A stretch of 64,000 bases of DNA from Porphyridium purpureum (lineage: Eukaryota > Rhodophyta > Bangiophyceae > Porphyridiales > Porphyridiaceae). Made by a program: the position numbers and the translations under genes. Under the pieces are notes generated by a model, which was not told the DNA's origin, made no database searches, and saw only the letters and a list, made by a program, of their open reading frames with translations. The stretch is from positions 1,674,001-1,738,000 of the forward strand of contig VRMN01000002.1 of assembly GCA_008690995.1 (NCBI GenBank), given 5' to 3'. Below, piece by piece: positions 15,163 through 55,263 of this stretch. Positions within the stretch are counted from its first letter, which is position 1. Every line of letters starts with the position of its first letter.

Positions 15163-15836
15163 TCAACTAGTCATCACTGGAGACTTTAGGATGCTATCTA
15201 GCATGTCGAGAAGGTCTTCCACTTCGCTCAGCGCTGTGTACCTGTTCTTTGACGTCAGCGCCTTGTCCAGGCCTTCGATGCGCTTTTTCAATTGATCCGG
15301 CATTTTCTTCGCCTTATCCGGGACCTCCCCGGTCGTCCTGGAAAGAACATTGCTGATATATCCGGGCACAGGTGTGATCCAAACGGCCATGTAGCGCTTT
15401 GCATATGCACATTCTTCGTCCTCCATAGCCTTCACAAGTTTCGGACCAGGCGGGCCCTTGATCAGCTTTTCGAGCTCTTTGGCCTTTGGTAGCGCCTCTT
15501 GCACGCGTGCGATCATAGCCCTGCGGTTGGGATCTTTCATGGGCGCCATGAACTTGTCAAAATTGCGTTGCATCTGCCGCACCTCATTCATCGGCTTCTG
15601 CAACTGAAAGTTCTTCTCCAGGTTCAGATCCAACGGCTTGGGCGCCTTCAGATCGGTTGGTAGGGTCGGTACCCACACCTGGACCTTGTCAGGGATGGCA
15701 GGTGGCGGCGGGAGATACAGCGCTCCGGCCTGCTGTTGGTTGGCGGCCAACGGCGTCACCAATCCCGCCAACACCAGGGCGCTCCTGAGCACGTCTCTTC
15801 TGCCGACGCCCTCCTCAGTACGCTGCTGCGGTGGCA

Positions 15837-15867
<31 letters not shown>

Positions 15868-16053
15868 ATGCGGCGGCAGCTGCGGCTGCGGCTGCTCTGA
15901 TTCCGTCTCGTTCTGACAGAAATTCAGCACGGCCGGCCTCGAGCCGCAGCTGGAGCGCTTGCGTTGCTTCACACTCATGCGCGCTGGTGACGACGTCGGC
16001 GAGGCTCCCACGAAGCCCAGCGAGCGCCGCGCGCCTTCCGAACCCTCTGCCAT
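15163..16053 (-). CDS. PsbQ-like thylakoid lumen protein with polyQ presequence
   Basis: 296 residues from the ATG at 16053. The presequence has a plastid-type first part and a Gln run (about 63-72). A twin-arginine signal follows, GRRDVLRSALVLAGLVTPLAA (RR at 85-86), with a likely cut after AGA near 111. The mature part of about 185 residues starts Pro-rich and then forms long amphipathic helices (MNEVRQMQRNFDKFM; YMAVWITPVPGYISNVL; LDKALTSKNRYTALSEVEDLLDMLDSILK). This is the four-helix layout of PsbQ-like proteins, which in red algae (PsbQ') stabilise the oxygen-evolving complex. A similar gene on the same strand starts about 1.5 kb upstream. Which of the two is PsbQ' itself cannot be told from reading alone. 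Confidence 0.75.
15838..15866. repeat. CAG/CTG triplet run coding for polyglutamine
   Basis: About nine CTG triplets on the plus strand, read as CAG codons in the PsbQ-like gene on the minus strand. The run falls in the cleaved presequence, so length changes should be tolerated. Confidence 0.9.
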
Positions 16054-16871: not shown

Positions 16872-17543
16872 TCAGAGCGATTTCCACACCGGCGCATTCA
16901 GGAACTCCTCCGCCGTTTCAATCACTTCCTGCACTTCGCGCAAAGACGCCGTGCGGTCCTTGCCGCGCAGCGCTTGCGTCAGCTCCGCGTAGTGGCCCTT
17001 CATCGCCAGGGCAAGCGTGTTCACGCGCTCAGGCACGGGAACTTTGGAGGTCTTCAATGCGCCGAGCTGCTCAACGGCCAGACTCATCTGACCGGCCAAG
17101 GGGGAGAGGTAGATCGCCGCGTAGCGCTTCAGCATCAACGCCGTGTCCTCGTCGAGGCTCTCGCTGCTCTTGAGCATCGTCTCAAATTGCCTCACTTTCG
17201 GCATGTACGCCTTGACCGCGTCGACCTTGTCCAGCACCCACTTGTTCTCCGTGCTGGTGTATTTCTTAAAGTCAGGGTACTTATTTTCCTTGGCCGCTTC
17301 GCTGCTCTGCGGGATCCCAAGCAAACCTGCGAGCCCAGCTACACCGAGCACTTGCAGTAGCACGTCCCGCCGCGTCGCGACAAATCGCTGCTCCCGCTCG
17401 AGATGCGGCAGCTGAAGTTGCTGATGCTGCTGCTCGCCAGTAGTCATCACAACCGCCGCGCGCGACGAGCACGTCGCGCGCTTTGGCTGCGCCAGACCGC
17501 ACGCGCGCCCTTGCACGCCGCCAGATGAGACCACGAACGCCAT
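16872..17543 (-). CDS. Second PsbQ-like thylakoid lumen protein
   Basis: 223 residues from the ATG at 17543, chosen because it gives MAFVVSS, the plastid start seen in other genes here; the frame remains open upstream. A twin-arginine lumen signal follows: TRRDVLLQVLGVAGLAGLLG (RR at 58-59), with a likely cut after SEAA near 84. The mature part of about 140 residues is four helices, with LDKVDAVKAYMPKVRQFETMLKS, ALMLKRYAAIYLSPLAGQMSLAVEQL, RVNTLALAMKGHYAELTQAL and SLREVQEVIETAEEFLNA. Its length fits red algal PsbQ' better than the neighbour does. It should act on the lumenal face of photosystem II. A CGCTGTAC variant at 17681-17688 may mark its promoter. Confidence 0.78.
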   Translation of the reverse strand: MAFVVSSGGVQGRACGLAQPKRATCSSRAAVVMTTGEQQHQQLQLPHLEREQRFVATRRDVLLQVLGVAGLAGLLGIPQSSEAAKENKYPDFKKYTSTENKWVLDKVDAVKAYMPKVRQFETMLKSSESLDEDTALMLKRYAAIYLSPLAGQMSLAVEQLGALKTSKVPVPERVNTLALAMKGHYAELTQALRGKDRTASLREVQEVIETAEEFLNAPVWKSL

Positions 17544-17823
17544 CCTACCTCTTATGCGAGCGCCGCTGCCGCGTCTGTGCCGTTCTTCCCGATCGCTCGT
17601 TCTCCTGCTGCGCCCAGCCAGATAACCGGACGACTCGGTTCTCAGAGATCGCTCGACAACCGCCCGTCTCATGTGGGACGCGCTGTACCGCTATTTACAT
17701 AGAAAAGAAACACATTCTAGATAGTGTACAGTTCGGTGCACCTCCGAGAGGATGTTTTGCAAGCTGCATTAGGGTTTGGCCATGGCGCACCGGCTGGTCC
17801 GAGATTTCGCCGTCTGCGCGCGC

Positions 17824-24088: not shown

Positions 24089-25750
24089 TTAGGGAACGGT
24101 ATCCGCACCTGCGGTTGCGGCAGGTGCGCTCGCGTTTGGACCAGGTTCAGGGGCGCCAGGAGTTGGTTTCGGTTTCATCTCTTTCTTGGCCAGAATTTGC
24201 CATATATAAGCGGGTGCCTGCTCCTTCCCGACCGCTTTGAAAATAAGCTCAAGACGTTGTGAAGCAACCGCAATGCCGCATGTTTCGCCACAATATTTGC
24301 TGGGGTCGTTCGCGAAGTTCGGGCACGTCCTTCGAGCGCAAGGCTCAGCAGCGAGCGGTTCAGAAGCGCGATCCTCACGCTTGGCGCGCTTTGCCGCGGG
24401 TGCACTGCTGTCATGCACCTTGATTGTTATGCCGGTGGTTTGCTGTGACTTTTGCGGCTCCTTGTCATCGTCAACTTTCGGATGCCCGGTGTGCACTCCC
24501 GGCGAGCCACCAGAAGAGGTGCGCCGTGCTAGTTTGCCAGTCGGCGGCTTTCCTCCGGAATCCACCATCGGTGGAGCGAGCTCATACACTGATTCGTCGC
24601 CTGTCTTTGAGTGCACACGGGCCAAATCTGACTTGGAAGGCGCATGTCCCGCGCTACGCAATAATCCCGCAAATTTTTTCTCCATAGCCACGGCCATTTT
24701 GAAGAGCTCAGAGCCATCTGCATTGTACAGCTTGCAGTTACTCCAGATTAATTGCACGTCTGCAGCGAAAGCCGCGACGTCGGCGTATTGGCCAGTATCG
24801 AGCTTGGATCTCACCGTCGCAAGATCCATGGGATGCTGCACGACTAGAAAATAGTCGCGCAAACTCGGGTCCACCGGCTGCAAAAATGGCCACGCATTCT
24901 TACTGTGCTCCAGAGACGCGAGCAGTTTCGCGCATGCTTTTGTATCCTGTTCGTCTATGACGCCGGCATTCCGAGTCCCTGACACCTGCGACGAGACATT
25001 GTGAGAAACCGCATTCGCGGGGACAAACGACCCTTTTGCGGACAAATCCGCACCCGGTAAAGCAACTGCATCGCCACCTCTTTGCGTGATCGCTGCGAGC
25101 TCGGTACAGAACCCAGAAGTCAGCAAGCTGGGATCATCCAGGGATCCAGCTTGGTCCAAAATAAACGACGCTTCCTTCAAGATGTCCCGCTCCGTGTAGC
25201 CCTTCATGTCCATGTAGGGATGCGAGAGCAAAGACAAAAAATTCGCGTACGACGCTTCTCTCGGGTCCATCGAGGTGGCGAGGATAAATGCGCGCGCACA
25301 AATCTCGAATCGGCGCCGTGTGAGTGTATACGTCTTGGTATAATCCTTGGCTGCGGCTCCAAGCTTGTACCATGCTAGCTCGGTACGCACGTATAGTGCT
25401 GGGTTCAGTCCGTACTCGATACACCATTCAAGCAACGGCCCGACAAGCGCATGGCAATACCTGGTACCGTTCACGGCAGTGCCGACGGCCATGATCCGCA
25501 GCTGCGCCTTGTCCTCCACGGAAGCGTCATCCAGCGCATCAATCGGCACTTGGTGGCCGTCTTTCAAGACTCGGAACTCCACGAGTTCCCGCGTGGGAAC
25601 GCCTGACTCGTCTGTCGACACGCTAAGCTCATCGCGGATGTCCTTTTCCTCCACCAGCGTCCCATTCACATACGCCTCGCTCGACTGCGCGCCGTAGCTC
25701 CCGGGTCCGGTCGATGCCCGTCGACTCAGCGACTTGGATGCCGAAGCCAT
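24089..25750 (-). CDS. Chromatin protein: RFTS-like domain, bromodomain, Cys-rich zinc motif
   Basis: 553 residues from the ATG at 25750; the frame is open upstream but that segment looks non-coding. Residues about 80-165 (LRIMAVGTAVNGTRYCHALVGPLLEWCIEYGLNPALYVRTELAWYKL) match the replication-foci (RFTS/RFD) domain of plant and animal DNMT1. Residues about 272-365 are a bromodomain, with WPFLQPVDPSLRDY, HPMDLATVRSKLDTG and the acetyl-lysine Asn in LYNADG (N343). Near 475-510 is a Cys cluster, CARRTCPNF...YCGETCGIAVA, like the PHD-linked zinc motif of SPP1/CFP1. No methyltransferase domain follows. The likely role is reading modified histones in the nucleus. The gene is convergent with the photolyase gene, 112 bp apart. 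Confidence 0.85.
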   Translation of the reverse strand: MASASKSLSRRASTGPGSYGAQSSEAYVNGTLVEEKDIRDELSVSTDESGVPTRELVEFRVLKDGHQVPIDALDDASVEDKAQLRIMAVGTAVNGTRYCHALVGPLLEWCIEYGLNPALYVRTELAWYKLGAAAKDYTKTYTLTRRRFEICARAFILATSMDPREASYANFLSLLSHPYMDMKGYTERDILKEASFILDQAGSLDDPSLLTSGFCTELAAITQRGGDAVALPGADLSAKGSFVPANAVSHNVSSQVSGTRNAGVIDEQDTKACAKLLASLEHSKNAWPFLQPVDPSLRDYFLVVQHPMDLATVRSKLDTGQYADVAAFAADVQLIWSNCKLYNADGSELFKMAVAMEKKFAGLLRSAGHAPSKSDLARVHSKTGDESVYELAPPMVDSGGKPPTGKLARRTSSGGSPGVHTGHPKVDDDKEPQKSQQTTGITIKVHDSSAPAAKRAKREDRASEPLAAEPCARRTCPNFANDPSKYCGETCGIAVASQRLELIFKAVGKEQAPAYIWQILAKKEMKPKPTPGAPEPGPNASAPAATAGADTVP

Positions 25751-26150
25751 GTTTCTCCAATCGCGCCGTTCATGAGGCCAGCACTCGCTCTCATTTGGGA
25801 GATGCGTGATGTTCTTTGGCTTCACCCGCAAACAAAAGTGATGATGGCGCCGGAGCGGGATACGTGTTTGAGAATAATAGCAGGCTGAGGGCAGCAACCG
25901 TTGAGCGGGTAGAGAACGTGCAGAGTTTAAATTCGCATTCATACCGACGTTTCTATTTCCAAAGCGAATGTCCGGAGTATTGGCGCAGAGGCGTTGCGCT
26001 TGCTCGGGTGGTTTCTAGTCTCCGAGGAGAACATCACGTGTGCGAAAAGCACAAGCTGAGACGCAGCGACAAAGTCTGTTCGCGCCGGGACATGCCTCGG
26101 AACTTGAAGTAACGCGTCCCGTCAGAAGACCAGGAACGGAATCTCACGCT

Positions 26151-33020: not shown

Positions 33021-34397
33021 ATGAAGCTGCTACATGTGTTGAGGTTGTATGTGGTGGCTGGAGAGGCGTCTGGAGACCGGCTGGCGGCCCGCGCAGTGAC
33101 GTCGCTGGCCGCGCTGGCCCGGGAGCACGGCGTGCGCGTCGAGGTGCACGGGGTGGGAGGGCCGGCGATGCGCGTTTCGGCGGCCGCCGCTGACGTCATC
33201 GCCTCGGGCACAGAGGGAGCAAGCGAGGCTGGCGCTGCGCGATCCTCGTTTCGATCTCTCCTGGACCTCTCCCGCCTCTCAGTCATGGGCATAGGGCACG
33301 TCCTGCTCGCCGCTCCACGATTATGGTACATGCAGCGTCAAGTGGTCAAGGATATTGAGCGCATCCGGCCACACGTCGTCTTGTTTGTTGATTTTAAAGC
33401 ATTTAACAAACGTGTCGCCAAACGTGTTCAGCACATGCGCCGCTTCAAAGAAGGTAGCCCCAGAACAGCATTGCTCCAATACGTCGCGCCGTCCATATGG
33501 GCATGGCGCTCGAGCCGTGCCGGCTCGCTGCGCTATGCCTCGCTTTTTGATGAGATTATGCTTTTGTTTCCGTTTGAGCGTCGTGCGTGGAACGCATTTG
33601 GCATTGCGCACGCATTCCTAGTTGGATCGCCCGCCGTTGAGGTCATGCTTGACGCCCGACTCTGGACGGCTTTAAAGCGTGTCTCTCAAATACGGCAAAA
33701 TCAGAGAGAGCAAACAGGCAGCCACATTGTTCTCATGCCTGGAAGCCGTCCGGATGAGTTGCACCATTGCATGCCTGTTCTCACAGCAGCGCTGAAAAGA
33801 ATCGCAGCGAGCTGCACTGGATATACACGCGTGGCATCTGTCACTTGCATTGTGGCCGAAAGCGTTGCGGAGCTTTTTTCCACCACGCACCTCAGCCGTT
33901 TAGTCGATTCTCTCACTGGAAGCTCTGTCACCGTGAACGTACACGTGAACACGCAGGCTCCCGAATCGTCAAGGCGAATTCCTGAAAACCTCAAGATCCT
34001 CGCATCAAGCGATCTCGCCATTGTGACGAGCGGCACAGCGGTTCTGGAGGCCGCCTTGGGAAGCACTCCGACTGTTTGTGTGTATCTGACTGACTGGCTT
34101 ACCAGTCTTATCGCCAAGCGCCGGGCGCAAGTGACGTGCGCATCCATACCAAACTTGATTCTGAATCGTACGGCCATCCCAGAACTCTTATTCGAGCAAT
34201 GCACAGAGGACCGAGTGGCGCAAAGCGCATGTGACTTGTTGAGAGATGAAGCTTCACGAAAGAAGCAGTTGCATGACGTGGCAATTGCTTTGCGCTGGCT
34301 GAGGCGCGAGCACTGCAGGCATTATGGAGGCGAAGTACCGTCGGCGCTCGTCGCGCAACGTATTCTTTATCACTACAACAAGGTCGAGAGAAGATGA
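33021..34397 (+). CDS. lpxB: Lipid-A-disaccharide synthase LpxB
   Basis: 458 residues from the ATG at 33021, which falls directly before the conserved start. LpxB motifs in order: VVAGEASGD (11-19), HGVGGPAM, LSVMGIGHVL, VDFKAFNKRV, QYVAPSIWAWR, HAFLVGSPAVE, VLMPGSRPDE, SDLAIVTSGTAVLEAALGSTPTVCVY and SIPNLILNRTAIPELL. The enzyme joins UDP-diacylglucosamine and lipid X to make the lipid A disaccharide. Plants keep this pathway in mitochondria; in red algae the product and site are unclear. It is longer than bacterial LpxB (about 380) because of Arg/Ser-rich inserts. No clear presequence is visible at this start; the frame is open further upstream, so a longer targeted form is possible. No other lpx gene is in the window. 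Confidence 0.9.
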   Translation: MKLLHVLRLYVVAGEASGDRLAARAVTSLAALAREHGVRVEVHGVGGPAMRVSAAAADVIASGTEGASEAGAARSSFRSLLDLSRLSVMGIGHVLLAAPRLWYMQRQVVKDIERIRPHVVLFVDFKAFNKRVAKRVQHMRRFKEGSPRTALLQYVAPSIWAWRSSRAGSLRYASLFDEIMLLFPFERRAWNAFGIAHAFLVGSPAVEVMLDARLWTALKRVSQIRQNQREQTGSHIVLMPGSRPDELHHCMPVLTAALKRIAASCTGYTRVASVTCIVAESVAELFSTTHLSRLVDSLTGSSVTVNVHVNTQAPESSRRIPENLKILASSDLAIVTSGTAVLEAALGSTPTVCVYLTDWLTSLIAKRRAQVTCASIPNLILNRTAIPELLFEQCTEDRVAQSACDLLRDEASRKKQLHDVAIALRWLRREHCRHYGGEVPSALVAQRILYHYNKVERR

Positions 34398-49554: not shown

Positions 49555-50892
49555 TCATGAAGACGAAGCAAAATCTGCCTTCCACTCAAGCGTGCATTTC
49601 TGCACATCCACTTTGATTTGCTGATGCCCCAGCTCTCGTCCAGGAACCTCAGTCGTTGCCGTGAGCGCACAGGCTGCTGCTTCCATCCACCGTAGTTCTT
49701 GAACCGTTGGTCGCACAACGGTCGGAGTAAAACCTCCTCCGCTGACCGTCACAAAGGGAAACGGATACAACGTAACCGTACGCGTCTTGTCGTCCTCATC
49801 TTGAAATTCATCGTGTGGCATCTCGATTTCATGCTCTTCAATAAAGTCCAAATCAGCGAACGGAGTCGCGACGTCCTCGGCAAAGAGTAAGACGAGTTCG
49901 CGACGACGCCAGCACATTCTCACGATGGAAGCCGGCGGGCTCGTCATTTTGCGCCAGTTCTGACACTCAACATGATGACCCGTTTCCAAGACCCAGTCAG
50001 CTTTTTGACACTCGGACGAGCAGTACAAAATGAACTTGCATGCTGCACAGCGAAATACATCCTGGCCGGCTTCAAACTCGACCCCACAACCAGCACAGCG
50101 GAACTCTGTGTCGGCAAACGCGTCGATGTTTTCTGCCTCAGGCACCGTGACCTTCATGAATTTGAGCTTCATTGCACGGAGCGACTTGCCCGCAGCAAAG
50201 CCGCGACTGCGCTTATCGAGAAATCCCAGCACATTGATATAATTCGCGATCTCGGTCTCAATCGTGACGGAATCAAATGAAATCCCAAAGGCGAGGTTCT
50301 CCGAGAACCCGCGGTTCCACGGCGCCGAGTGGTACAGAAGCACAAAATTTCGCATGCATCGCATCAGCAGATCGTCCGTCACACCCGGAGCGCCCGTGAT
50401 ACTGGGCAGGGCGCCGGCCTCGCCTTGTGTTGCCAGGTCCTTCTCGATCAGCTTTTGAGAGTACGTCTGAACGTAGTTTTGAATACCATCTGCTTTGGTC
50501 AAATACGAGACTCGAATGCCGGCCTGGCCCAGAATTTGCTCCAACGGTTCAATAAGTTTTTTATCGCTGCAGTGGAGGAACTCTGGCCGACGCACAGGAC
50601 TGCCTGTTGGCGGGTCGAGGATTGCTTCCAATACGAATCGCGCGAGTTGCTTGGCATCTGGCTTTATGTGGTGATTACTCGCCTTTCCTGGAAGCGAGCT
50701 GCAGAGCACGAAGCCACGCGGATACAGCTCGTTGAGAATGATCAGGTACGGCCGGACTGGGCGGTCGTCCGAATCTGCGACCCATACGTTCAGCTTGTGC
50801 GCGTCAATTTCCCACACAATTTTGTCCGGCTGCTCGATCTTCCGCGCAGCACGCACTAGATCCTCCAAGGACTGACGAGAAGCTGTCGCCAT
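49555..50892 (-). CDS. MYND zinc-finger protein
   Basis: 445 residues from the ATG at 50892; an ATG at 51021 would add 43 residues. The N-terminal 240 residues have strands and helices (IVWEIDAHKLNVWVA, RPYLIILNELYPRGFVLCSS, RPEFLHCSD) resembling bacterial/algal DUF domains with a nuclease-like look, but I cannot name one. Near 266-310 is a MYND finger: CAGCGVEF, CAACKFILYCSSECQKADW, HHVEC. MYND fingers bind Pro-rich partner peptides. The C-terminus is acidic and then hydrophobic. The gene sits 132 bp downstream of the aminopeptidase-cyclophilin gene on the same strand. Confidence 0.75.
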   Translation of the reverse strand: MATASRQSLEDLVRAARKIEQPDKIVWEIDAHKLNVWVADSDDRPVRPYLIILNELYPRGFVLCSSLPGKASNHHIKPDAKQLARFVLEAILDPPTGSPVRRPEFLHCSDKKLIEPLEQILGQAGIRVSYLTKADGIQNYVQTYSQKLIEKDLATQGEAGALPSITGAPGVTDDLLMRCMRNFVLLYHSAPWNRGFSENLAFGISFDSVTIETEIANYINVLGFLDKRSRGFAAGKSLRAMKLKFMKVTVPEAENIDAFADTEFRCAGCGVEFEAGQDVFRCAACKFILYCSSECQKADWVLETGHHVECQNWRKMTSPPASIVRMCWRRRELVLLFAEDVATPFADLDFIEEHEIEMPHDEFQDEDDKTRTVTLYPFPFVTVSGGGFTPTVVRPTVQELRWMEAAACALTATTEVPGRELGHQQIKVDVQKCTLEWKADFASSS

Positions 50893-51024: not shown

Positions 51025-54008
51025 TTACCAGACGTTTCGAACTAGGGTTTCGGCGGAGCTTTGGAGCTTTGGTGCTTGTTGTTGGTCGAGGAGTCCGCAA
51101 TCAACGATGGTGACTGGTTGCTTGGGTCGATTCTGTGGGCCCACACCGCCGATCTCTTCCATGTGGTAGATGACAGACATGCCCTCTAGCACGCGGCCAA
51201 ATGCAATGTAGCGGCCGTCAAGGTACCCAGAGTCGGCCTTGGTCTGGATCAGAAACCGAGAGTCGGCCTTGCCATCGCGCGCATGGCACATGCTAATCAG
51301 CCCGGCCACTGAGTGCCGCAGATCAAAGTTCTCAGGCATATAGCTGCCGCCGGGAAGTATGGCGCGGCCTTGCTTGCCTTTGGAGGAAGGAATGTCGCCA
51401 CCTTGGACAGTGAGGCCGGACACGACGCGGTAGAACGAGCTGCCACGGTATCCGGCACCCTCTTTGTCTGTGATCAGACCCACAAAATTCTGGACCGTGG
51501 TCGGGGCAACATCTCCAAAAAGGCCAATCACAATGCGCTGTGGCTCCTCGCCTTCCACTTGCACATCCATGAAGCACTTCTGAGTAATTTTCGGCGGATA
51601 CTCACGCGGGTCAAGTTTCCACTTCGGCCCCTCATCCGCACGACTTGGACGCACGAGAAGCTGTGTACATCGATAAGCGGAACAAGACAGAGGAAAGGAA
51701 AGGTCGGTCGAGGCCAACACGACGCATAGCATGGAGTGGAATGAAATAAAATGGTACACGTCATCATTGGTCAGAAACATCATACTGCATGGCACCAGCT
51801 TGAAAGCGCTCGGACATTTGATCACTGACAAGGACTTACCTCTCCATTTCCAAACAGAAGGGCCAGCGCGCCGAGACCGATCGTAGACTTGATGAAATCC
51901 CTCCGACTTTCCTCACCCGTACTGTCCGTCCCCTGACCGTCACGTAGAGGAGTTGTACTGGCCCGCAACCAGTTCAGCGTGACAGTGTCGTTCTCCGAGA
52001 TTCGAGGCGAAATCGAGTCCCATACCTCGCGGTGGTATAAATCGATCCAGTCGCGCTCCTCCTGACTGAGCAGTTCGACTGCAATCATTCTTTTCTGGAT
52101 GGGCACCTTCGTGAGTCGCGAGAATCCTAGGAATTGCGCGTTCCCAAATGTTTTAACATCGCGCAACTTCTCCTCCACAACGAGCAAGTTCTCGATGCGA
52201 ATGCCGAAAGCACCGTCCTCGTAGTACCCTGGCTCGTTGCTGACCACCATTCCCGGTTGCAGTCCCTGCGTATTCTGCATTCGCGGGCTGATTCCATGCG
52301 GGCCTTCATGCACGTTGAGTGCGGCTCCCACGCCATGTCCCGTGCCGTGCCGATAATCCAGACCCGCCTGCCACAAGGCATTTCTTGCGAGTGTGTCAAG
52401 CAACGCACCCGGCGTTCGCGCTGGAAATATCGCGGCGTCAATCGCAATGTGTCCCTTCAGTACTCTAGTGAACGTTTCCTTTTGCCACGCGCTAGGCTCA
52501 CCGAAATGGACGGTGCGCGTGACATCGGTGGTGCCGACATCATACTGCGCCCCAGAATCCAACAAAAATAGCTCGTCCACGCTGACCTTGCGACAAGACG
52601 CCTCCTGTGCCCGATAATGGATCACAGCGCCGTTAGGTCCGGAGCCCGCGATGGTCGGAAAGCTGCAGAACAAATGGCCAGGCTGCTCCGAGCGGAACTT
52701 GTCCACCTGCAAGTCGACTTCGTACTCGGTCAGTGTGTTGCCTTTCGCCAGGTGTTCCTCGGCCCACGCGAAGAAACGAGACAGAGCAACGCCGTCACGC
52801 AGGTGCGCTTCACGCATACCCGCAAGCTCGGCGTCGTTTTTGAGCGCCTTTGCCAATACTATTGGCGAGGTCTGCAGCACTGCCTCTTTGCACTTTTGGA
52901 AGATTCCGTACGAAACCGTCTGAGGGTCGAGCCACACTTTTTCGAGAGCGGAAATATCGCAGAATATCTGTTCATAGTCACACACAGTGACTCCATGGCC
53001 GCTAAGCGACGATTTAAGCTCCTCAGACACTTTAGCACCGTCCACGTACCACTTGGCTGTGCCATCTGCAAATACGAGGCAGTACGACAGCACTAATTGC
53101 GACTCTTTGTAATCTGTTCCGCGAATATTCAGCAGCCAGGCTACTTCATCTAGCATGCTCACGCACAAAGCATCAGCTCCGTGCTTCTGAATCGCTGCAC
53201 CGATTTCCTTGAGTTTCTCGGTCCGCGGTTTACCTGCGTACGCAAGCGGGTGCTCACGCACTGCACCGGCTGGCATTCCTGGCCTTTCGGTGCCCCACAC
53301 CTCATCGATGAGGTTTGTGTCGCTCACGGTGATCAGCTTGATGTTCTTTTCATTGAGTGTTTTCTCTAGAGACTGCGCGTTTGCTGTGACGTGCACCAGC
53401 GGGTCGATGGCCACCTGACCATTTTCGGGCAAAGAATCGGCAAGGAAAGTCTCAATGGTCGGAGTGTCTGGCATCCCGGCTTTCATTAGCGTCCAGTCTC
53501 CGGACAGCTCTGTGGACGCCTGCAGAAAATACCTGCCGTCTGTCCAGAGCAGCGCCTTGTCTCTCAGAATCACCGCCGTGCCCGCCGACCCAGAGAAGCC
53601 CGAAATGAATGCGCGCCGAAGAAAGCATGGTGCAGCATACTCTGAATTGTGCGGGTCAGCGGACGGGACAATCAACGCATCAATCCCGCGCTCCACCATG
53701 ACCCGCTGCTGCAAGTCCTTGAGCGCGTCCTTCTCACGGCCGCCGACCGCCTTGACATTCAGACTCATAGCCATCCTTCTACCTCCACGGCCAAGCCGCC
53801 CTGGGTTAGCCATGCCATCCCAATTCCGGCTCTGGCTCTGACTACTGATCCCGTGCCATGACGCGCGTCTTCCGATGCAGGCAGATCGGCGCGCGAACTC
53901 AAAGCATCCATTCGGTGCGGTCACACGGCACGCATGGCTTTGTGCACGTGCTTGTGCGCCGGCGCAGGTACGTGCGAGGCCTGCTTGTGCCGCAGCAAAC
54001 GCAAACAT
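51025..54008 (-). CDS. Fusion: plastid Xaa-Pro aminopeptidase P - twin-arginine signal - lumenal cyclophilin (two exons)
   Basis: Exon 1 (54008-51840) codes a presequence starting MFAFAAAQ and a complete M24 aminopeptidase P, about 85-690. Metal ligands are D484, D495, H558, E592 and E606, in LLDSGAQYD, TTDVTRTVHFG, GTGHGVG, SNEPGYY and RIENLL. It continues in frame into SRRDFIK (701-707) and a hydrophobic core, a textbook Tat signal. At 51840 the codon GAG meets GTAAGT. A 179-bp intron (51661-51839) with a pyrimidine-rich 3' part ends TACACAG. Exon 2 (51660-51025) continues in phase 0 with LLVRPSRADEG and a cyclophilin (FYRVVSGLTVQGGD, RFLIQTKADSGYLDGRYIAFGRV). The spliced product is 934 residues. 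Intron retention gives a 728-residue aminopeptidase ending GNGEVSPCQ. The cyclophilin has Y at the usual Trp121 and His126 positions of CypA. Confidence 0.8.
51661..51839 (-). other. Intron joining aminopeptidase P and cyclophilin
   Basis: Borders GTAAGT...TACACAG, phase 0, with a run of pyrimidines (TTCCTTTCCTCTGTCTTG) 15-35 bp before the 3' end. The reading frame of exon 2 stays open back through the intron to 51831, but that stretch looks non-coding. Confidence 0.8.
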
Positions 54009-54612: not shown

Positions 54613-55263
54613 ATGATGCGAAAATCGTTGATTGTGGCGCTTCTGGTGGCGCTGCTGGCCATACTCGCTATGCATGCAGTTAGTGCGCAGACCATGACAC
54701 CGACGCCGACGCCGACCCCATCCCCGATGCCGTCACCGTCGCCGGCGTTGCGTGTGATTGAGGAGGAAGTTGACGAGGAATTGGAGTTTGACCTGCCTCT
54801 GGACTTTGAGCGCCAGATCTTGGTAGACACAGAGATCCCGCGAGCAGAAGAGACCGAGATTCCCATTGCCGAGCGTACATACAAGGGCTACGATAGCAAG
54901 GGCTACGATAGCAAGGGCTACGGCGGCAAGGGCTACGGCGGCAAGGGCTACGATAGCAAGGGCTACGGCGGCAAGGGCTACGACGGCAAGGGCTACGATA
55001 GCAAGGGCTACGGCGGATACGAGGATAAGAGCTACGGCGGCAAGGGGTATGGTGGATACGAGGATAAGAGCTATGGCGGCAAGGGGTATGGTGGATACGA
55101 GGATAAGAGCTATGGCGGAAAGGGCTATGGTGGATACGAGGACAAGAGCTATGGCGGAAAGGGCTATGGTGGATACGAGGACAAGAGCTATGGCGGAAAG
55201 AGGTACGGTGGATACGGTGGCAAGAAGCTGGATGGAAAGAGCAAATCAAAGGGGTACTACTGA
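54613..55263 (+). CDS. Secreted Gly/Tyr/Lys-repeat structural protein
   Basis: 216 residues from the ATG at 54613 (another at 54616). A signal peptide (KSLIVALLVALLAILAMHAVSAQ) is followed by a Pro/Thr spacer (TPTPTPTPSPMPSPSP) and an acidic segment. Then come nine 5-residue units KGYDS/KGYGG and five 13-residue units of the type YEDKSYGGKGYGG, with a Lys-rich end. Tyr- and Gly-rich repeats of this kind occur in cell-wall and adhesive matrix proteins, where tyrosines can be cross-linked. A role in the extracellular matrix is inferred. The DNA repeats are nearly perfect, pointing to recent copying or ongoing conversion. A TATA box lies upstream. Confidence 0.8.
   Translation: MMRKSLIVALLVALLAILAMHAVSAQTMTPTPTPTPSPMPSPSPALRVIEEEVDEELEFDLPLDFERQILVDTEIPRAEETEIPIAERTYKGYDSKGYDSKGYGGKGYGGKGYDSKGYGGKGYDGKGYDSKGYGGYEDKSYGGKGYGGYEDKSYGGKGYGGYEDKSYGGKGYGGYEDKSYGGKGYGGYEDKSYGGKRYGGYGGKKLDGKSKSKGYY
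54883..55209 (+). repeat. 15-bp and 39-bp coding tandem repeats
   Basis: Nine 15-bp units (AAGGGCTACGATAGC or AAGGGCTACGGCGGC) from 54883, then five 39-bp units starting at 55015, 55054, 55093, 55132 and 55171. They code the Gly-Tyr repeats. Confidence 0.9.

Follow-up and report, generated by a model that had tools for sequence, protein, structure and literature searches.

The question raised by this locus is whether an aminopeptidase P and a cyclophilin, which follow one another on the minus strand between positions 54008 and 51025 of the window (the whole 64,000-nt stretch of Porphyridium purpureum DNA analysed here), belong to two genes or to one spliced gene whose single precursor would serve two compartments of the plastid. 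An ATG at 54008 opens a frame of 2169 nt, which passes from a complete aminopeptidase P through a 12-residue linker into SRRDFIKSTIGLGALALLFG and ends, with no stop in between, at a GAG codon and the GTAAGT donor at 51839. Removal of 51839-51661 (179 nt, phase 0) gives a spliced product of 934 residues with the cyclophilin at its C-terminal end. In this one 934-aa chain, Pfam recognised four aminopeptidase P domains and a Pro_isomerase domain, each above its gathering score. The arrangement of aminopeptidase, twin-arginine (Tat) signal and cyclophilin is complete in the sequence, with two complete domains in one open frame, a Tat motif and splice signals. The gene model of the earlier note (exons 54008-51840 and 51660-51025 and a 179-nt phase-0 intron) was reproduced, and translation and Pfam confirmed its description of an M24 frame running stop-free into a Tat-like motif and GTAAGT. 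The most likely structure, and our best reading of the sequence, is one spliced gene, fused across a phase-0 intron and carrying its Tat signal internally. Its features are as follows.

54008-51840, minus strand: exon 1, 2169 nt, 723 codons
53769-54008, minus strand: putative plastid transit peptide, residues 1-80, MFAFAAAQAGLARTCAGAQ..., with 12 K/R and 2 D/E, from composition only
51945-53708, minus strand: aminopeptidase P (M24B) domains, residues 101-688, from Pfam and the 3ctz alignment
51909-51944, minus strand: linker RDGQGTDSTGEE, residues 689-700, beyond the aminopeptidase domain end by Pfam and 3ctz
51840-51908, minus strand: predicted Tat n- and h-region SRRDFIKSTIGLGALALLFGNGE, residues 701-723, from TIGR01409, the motif-plus-core pattern and hydropathy
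51661-51839, minus strand: putative spliceosomal intron, 179 nt, GTAAGT...TACACAG, phase 0, T content 0.346
51822-51824, minus strand: stop codon met on intron retention, the aminopeptidase frame ending NGEVSPCQ
51025-51783, minus strand: rival ORF from an ATG inside the intron at 51783, 252 aa including the whole cyclophilin, from the ORF list
51660-51025, minus strand: exon 2, 636 nt with the stop
51637-51660, minus strand: c-region LLVRPSRA, residues 724-731, with a predicted lumenal cut after A731 (-3/-1 rule, by eye)
51028-51636, minus strand: predicted mature cyclophilin, residues 732-934, from Pfam and the PDB search
51094-51570, minus strand: Pro_isomerase domain, residues 754-912, Pfam 105.8 bits, profile positions 2-158 of 159

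The N-terminus of the predicted product starts with MF and has few acidic residues; transit peptides of red algae carry an aromatic residue near their start. Behind it, the Pfam domains Creatinase_N (residues 101-230), Creatinase_N_2 (241-394), Peptidase_M24 (397-613) and Peptidase_M24_C (625-688) follow in series. Xaa-Pro aminopeptidase 1 (3ctz, which we take to be the human enzyme) aligned over residues 104-688 with an E value of 1.9e-153, and the likeness extends to all four domains, the domain end and the metal-ligand motifs. The alignment reaches residue 619 of the 623 in 3ctz at residue 688 of the fusion product, leaving four residues. Since the Pfam domain and the 3ctz alignment both end at 688, residues 689-723, comprising the polar linker and the Tat region, are extra to the domain. 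The D/D/H/E/E ligand motifs (LDSGAQYD...TTDVTRT, HGTGHGVG, NEPGYY and RIEN, at residues 484 to 606), whose residues are presumably the two-metal ligands, are all present, suggesting that the aminopeptidase half is probably active. Plants have a stromal aminopeptidase P. We know of no member of the aminopeptidase P family whose chain goes on into a Tat signal followed by another protein.

The region beyond the linker has the features of a Tat substrate, namely an [ST]RRxFxK motif, a hydrophobic core and, at a cleavage site placed by eye, small residues at -3 and -1, the positions that govern cleavage by signal peptidases. TIGR01409 scored 18.9 bits on a 34-aa piece and 17.3 bits on a 60-aa piece, both above the cut-off of 16.7. 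It should be noted that the whole 728-aa frame scored 14.7 bits, below the same cut-off, which counts against the fusion. The bare [ST]RRxF pattern was no commoner in the window than chance predicts (2 occurrences against 2.51). When a hydrophobic core was also required, three matches were found, against a mean of 0.46 and a maximum of 3 in 100 first-order Markov draws; they were the fusion site, the PsbQ-like ORF at 16872-17672 and one plus-strand site that looks like noise. The weight of the Tat evidence is carried by position, as the signal is in frame, no more than 40 codons past the aminopeptidase domain, and adjoins the donor. At the null rate, a Tat-like match would be expected about 1e-4 times in the roughly 40 codons after the domain, a post hoc figure that serves only as a guide. 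Codon use in this stretch is also coding-like: the 22 codons from RRD to NGE scored 0.158 per codon, where true coding windows average 0.145, and the 106-nt tail in the same frame scored 0.126.

Two further ORFs with RRD-type signals lie elsewhere in the window:

15163-16053, minus strand: PsbQ homologue with its own start and a Tat-like signal, GRRDVLRSALVLAGLVTPLAANQQQAGA (PF05757, 28.3 bits, cut-off 26.9)
16872-17672, minus strand: PsbQ-like ORF with its own start and a Tat-like signal, ATRRDVLLQVLGVAGLAGLLGIPQSSEA (no Pfam match above the cut-off)

The two share 24% identity over 119 residues. Their signals read GRRDVLR... and TRRDVLL..., respectively, the former recognised by eye as the motif scan requires S or T before RR. 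Together they point to a thylakoid lumen served by Tat in this organism. Their presence indicates a plastid-bearing eukaryote, and the CSE1, GLE1 and E2F genes in the window speak for nuclear DNA. The G+C content, the compactness and the long ORFs free of introns suggest a red alga. As a standard of comparison the PsbQ-like ORFs also count against the fusion on one point, since the c-region predicted for the fusion is longer than in either of them and contains E and R. The distance from RR to the likely cut, read by eye, is 28 residues in the fusion, compared with 25 in the ORF at 15163-16053 and 24 in that at 16872-17672.

The intron is framed by the donor GTAAGT at 51839-51834 and the acceptor ACACAG ending at 51661. 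Among the 172 GTs scored in the locus, the donor at 51839 was the sole 6/6 match to the consensus, with six others reaching 5/6; scoring was against a 6-position consensus rather than a species-specific splice model, and no other intron of the window has been established. On both strands of the window GTAAGT occurs 4 times, compared with 11.35 expected. The donor at 51839 was also the only GT within 51960-51700 that gave an open fusion with the acceptor at 51661. Conversely, 19 acceptors lying 30 to 700 nt past this donor gave an open in-frame fusion, so that frame alone does not pick the acceptor. Measured over the 30 nt before each acceptor, the pyrimidine share was highest at 51661 (0.70, against 0.60 for the runner-up of the 19), and this acceptor yields an S-x-A site behind the hydrophobic core (LLVRPSRA/DEG). 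Over 50 nt, the pyrimidine share before it was 0.72, a value reached by 0.24% of 3780 coding 50-mers, and the T content of the intron, 0.346, was reached by 6 of 1174 overlapping coding windows. In favour of splicing are the Tat motif, the single donor with 6/6 matches, a T-rich stretch that includes a pyrimidine tract, and the S-x-A site.

The cyclophilin domain is complete by Pfam. In the PDB search, its best match had an E value of 1.3e-37; most of the top named matches were cyclophilins B or C, with the lumenal PnsL5 close behind (4.2e-35). Cyclophilins B and C are of the ER type. Sequence similarity does not settle the compartment of the cyclophilin. The active-site set of CypA, with its numbering, we take to be R55, F60, M61, Q63, A101, F113, W121, L122 and H126. 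By eye from the alignment to 4frv, listed in the PDB search only as a peptidyl-prolyl isomerase, three of these nine positions are kept (R55, Q63 and L122) and the others read F60L, M61T, A101C, F113L, W121Y and H126Y. With six of nine positions lost, the protein is probably a weak isomerase or none. The proposal that the gene supplies two enzymes is therefore doubtful on the side of the cyclophilin, whereas the aminopeptidase, in which all motifs are present, is probably active. The pair may thus consist of an enzyme plus a chaperone or assembly factor. Weak or absent activity would match what a review (PMC3813922) states of most immunophilins of the lumen, which are inactive as isomerases when assayed with synthetic peptides. 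A single-sequence AlphaFold model of the exon encoding the cyclophilin had a mean pLDDT of 31.9 and was left out of the argument. The search of genome contigs found four bacterial (Sphingomonas) cyclophilin loci at 33-34% identity, which have no bearing on the fusion.

We propose, at a probability of roughly 0.58, that one spliced nuclear gene gives a 934-residue plastid precursor from which a stromal aminopeptidase P and, through the internal Tat signal, a lumenal cyclophilin are made. We infer a single transcription unit, import into the plastid, transport by Tat and the two cuts. The N-terminus would bring the entire 934-residue chain into the plastid, and there, in the stroma, the front part would fold into aminopeptidase P. 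Behind it, the twin-arginine motif would act as an internal Tat signal that inserts as a hairpin, so that the cyclophilin domain would cross the thylakoid membrane, and the lumenal signal peptidase would cut after SRA (A731/D732) to free the cyclophilin in the lumen. The aminopeptidase would either be released when the linker (residues 689-700) is cut in the stroma, or stay at the stromal face, anchored by what is left of the signal. As to origin, we speculate that, through a deletion, the final codons of an aminopeptidase gene came to adjoin the Tat signal in a gene for a lumenal cyclophilin, which may have made the cyclophilin gene's own start and transit peptide dispensable.

In an extended version of this proposal, splicing would gate the supply of the two proteins. 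The spliced chain would serve both faces of the thylakoid through the internal Tat signal, with the folded enzyme on the stromal side, and the unspliced mRNA would give only the aminopeptidase, ending in a truncated Tat core by which it might be anchored to the thylakoid membrane. Read through the intron, the aminopeptidase frame meets its stop at 51822 after 728 aa. Passages of one report (PMC5880011) describe a reduced set of spliceosome genes in Porphyridium and much intron retention in Galdieria, which makes a retained form of the fusion mRNA plausible. Intron-retained forms might simply be decayed, and we regard the gated version as doubtful.

The first rival explanation is that of two tandem intronless genes, the aminopeptidase ending at 51822 and the cyclophilin starting at the ATG at 51783, perhaps bound for the ER, with the Tat-like tail arising by chance. 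Both ORFs exist, and the high rank of named cyclophilins B and C in the PDB search would fit an ER protein. The cyclophilin frame is open across the whole intron and upstream to a stop at 51915, giving 84 open codons before exon 2, and the ATG at 51783 sits 38 nt past the stop that the aminopeptidase meets when the intron is retained. A gene finder without introns would therefore call two genes 38 nt apart. The cyclophilin had been said to have no start or targeting signal of its own; the in-frame ATG corrects the first part of that claim, and the N-terminus that it opens, judged by eye, does not look like a transit peptide. The codon score of the intron in the cyclophilin frame was 0.068, which leans towards coding and counts against the fusion but is not decisive. 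A score of at least 0.068 was reached by 84.6% of 592 coding windows, by 27% of 1366 stop-free intergenic windows and by 5.1% of 256 stop-free off-frame windows, the last figure speaking for two genes; 25.5% of intergenic windows of the intron's length were stop-free by chance. Short gaps are not unusual in the window, in which two same-strand ORF pairs lie 124 and 132 nt apart; however, none of the same-strand pairs listed is separated by as little as 38 nt. The N-terminus of the shorter ORF, MMFLTNDDVYHFISFHSMLCVVLAST, has two D and two H ahead of a 10-residue uncharged run, and the stretch from its ATG to 51661 has a T content of 0.374, compared with a coding mean of 0.22. With two genes, the Tat signal would also be a coincidence, as would the S-x-A site and the donor, which is the best in the locus. 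Because of these coincidences, the poor N-terminus and the high T content, we consider the two-gene reading improbable.

A second rival holds that the genes overlap or use alternative transcripts, such that the Tat exon is part of a cyclophilin mRNA with its start and transit peptide in another exon, and that the continuity with the aminopeptidase is accidental or a minor read-through. The PsbQ-like ORFs of the window, which have their own starts, and the compact genome, where the gap to one neighbour is 132 nt, are consistent with this. Within the locus, we searched for exon-skipping forms that lead from donors of 4/6 matches or better in the transit region (roughly codons 21-133) to acceptors of the Tat exon (52048-51902), and zero in-frame forms were found within these limits. 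The nearest in-frame ATG (Met641) gives an acidic segment, in which the 60 residues up to SRR hold 13 D/E and 5 K/R, and it was rejected as the start of a transit peptide. We give this arrangement little credence, much as we do two tandem genes. Finally, an assembly error, in which a deletion fused neighbouring genes, with loss of the stop codon of the aminopeptidase, the spacer and the transit peptide of the cyclophilin, would suit a linker as short as 12 residues but is very improbable given a join in frame, both domains intact and coding-like codon use on either side.

The single spliced gene would join two known ideas, and it is plausible as such: an internal Tat signal, and two plastid proteins under one transit peptide. 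For the latter, passages of a report on SODcp-RPL32 in Malpighiales (PMC8429499) describe one nuclear gene that gives two plastid proteins with one transit peptide by alternative splicing. The likeness lies in two unrelated plastid proteins, one transit peptide and a second protein in its own last exon. The difference is that alternative splicing is reported there, whereas the second part of the fusion gene has an internal Tat signal for the lumen. Both products of SODcp-RPL32 are stromal.

For the internal signal, passages of two reports (PMC7317946 and PMC13186574) describe actinobacterial polytopic Rieske proteins in which the last helix is an internal Tat signal. In both cases a twin-arginine signal far from the N-terminus exports, or in the fusion would export, a C-terminal domain; however, transmembrane helices precede the signal in the Rieske proteins, whereas in the fusion the signal comes after a soluble enzyme and ahead of a likely cleavage site. 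The cyclophilin half resembles lumenal cyclophilins (CYP38/TLP40 and CYP20-2/PnsL5) in having a cyclophilin domain behind a thylakoid signal. Cyclophilins of the thylakoid lumen are made with their own transit peptide. CYP20-2 is given as Sec-routed in passages of the review cited above (PMC3813922).

If the proposal is true, one gene supplies two sub-compartments of the plastid, an unusual arrangement, and a lumenal protein would have a route by which to give up its promoter and transit peptide and depend on those of its neighbour. The chain would furthermore be a natural Tat substrate with 700 residues before its signal, or about 620 after removal of the transit peptide, and would test the load that an internal signal hairpin bears in the thylakoid.

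No relative with the same fusion was found among the genome contigs and viral contigs searched, a set to which eukaryotic genomes do not belong, which gives this negative little weight, and the viral contigs held no relative of the aminopeptidase frame or of the cyclophilin ORF. No published fusion of this kind was found by title or abstract start among the CC-licensed papers in PubMed Central, and the words 'fusion' and 'cyclophilin' are both absent from the main text of the 2019 Porphyridium genome paper (PMC6811547). Rfam and tRNA scans gave no matches.

The divergent neighbour on the plus strand (54613-55263) is an ORF of 216 aa. Its N-terminus is hydrophobic, it contains the stretch TPTPTPSP and numerous GYGG/KGYDSKGYGGYEDKS repeats, and it had no significant Pfam match. 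On the other side, a protein with a MYND finger and DUF6930 is encoded at 49555-50892 on the minus strand, its ATG lying 132 nt past the cyclophilin stop. One ORF at 24089-25942 on the minus strand combines a bromodomain with a DNMT1 replication-foci domain, and a homologue of LpxB (lipid-A-disaccharide synthetase; 178.1 bits) lies at 33021-34397 on the plus strand, in what is apparently nuclear algal DNA.
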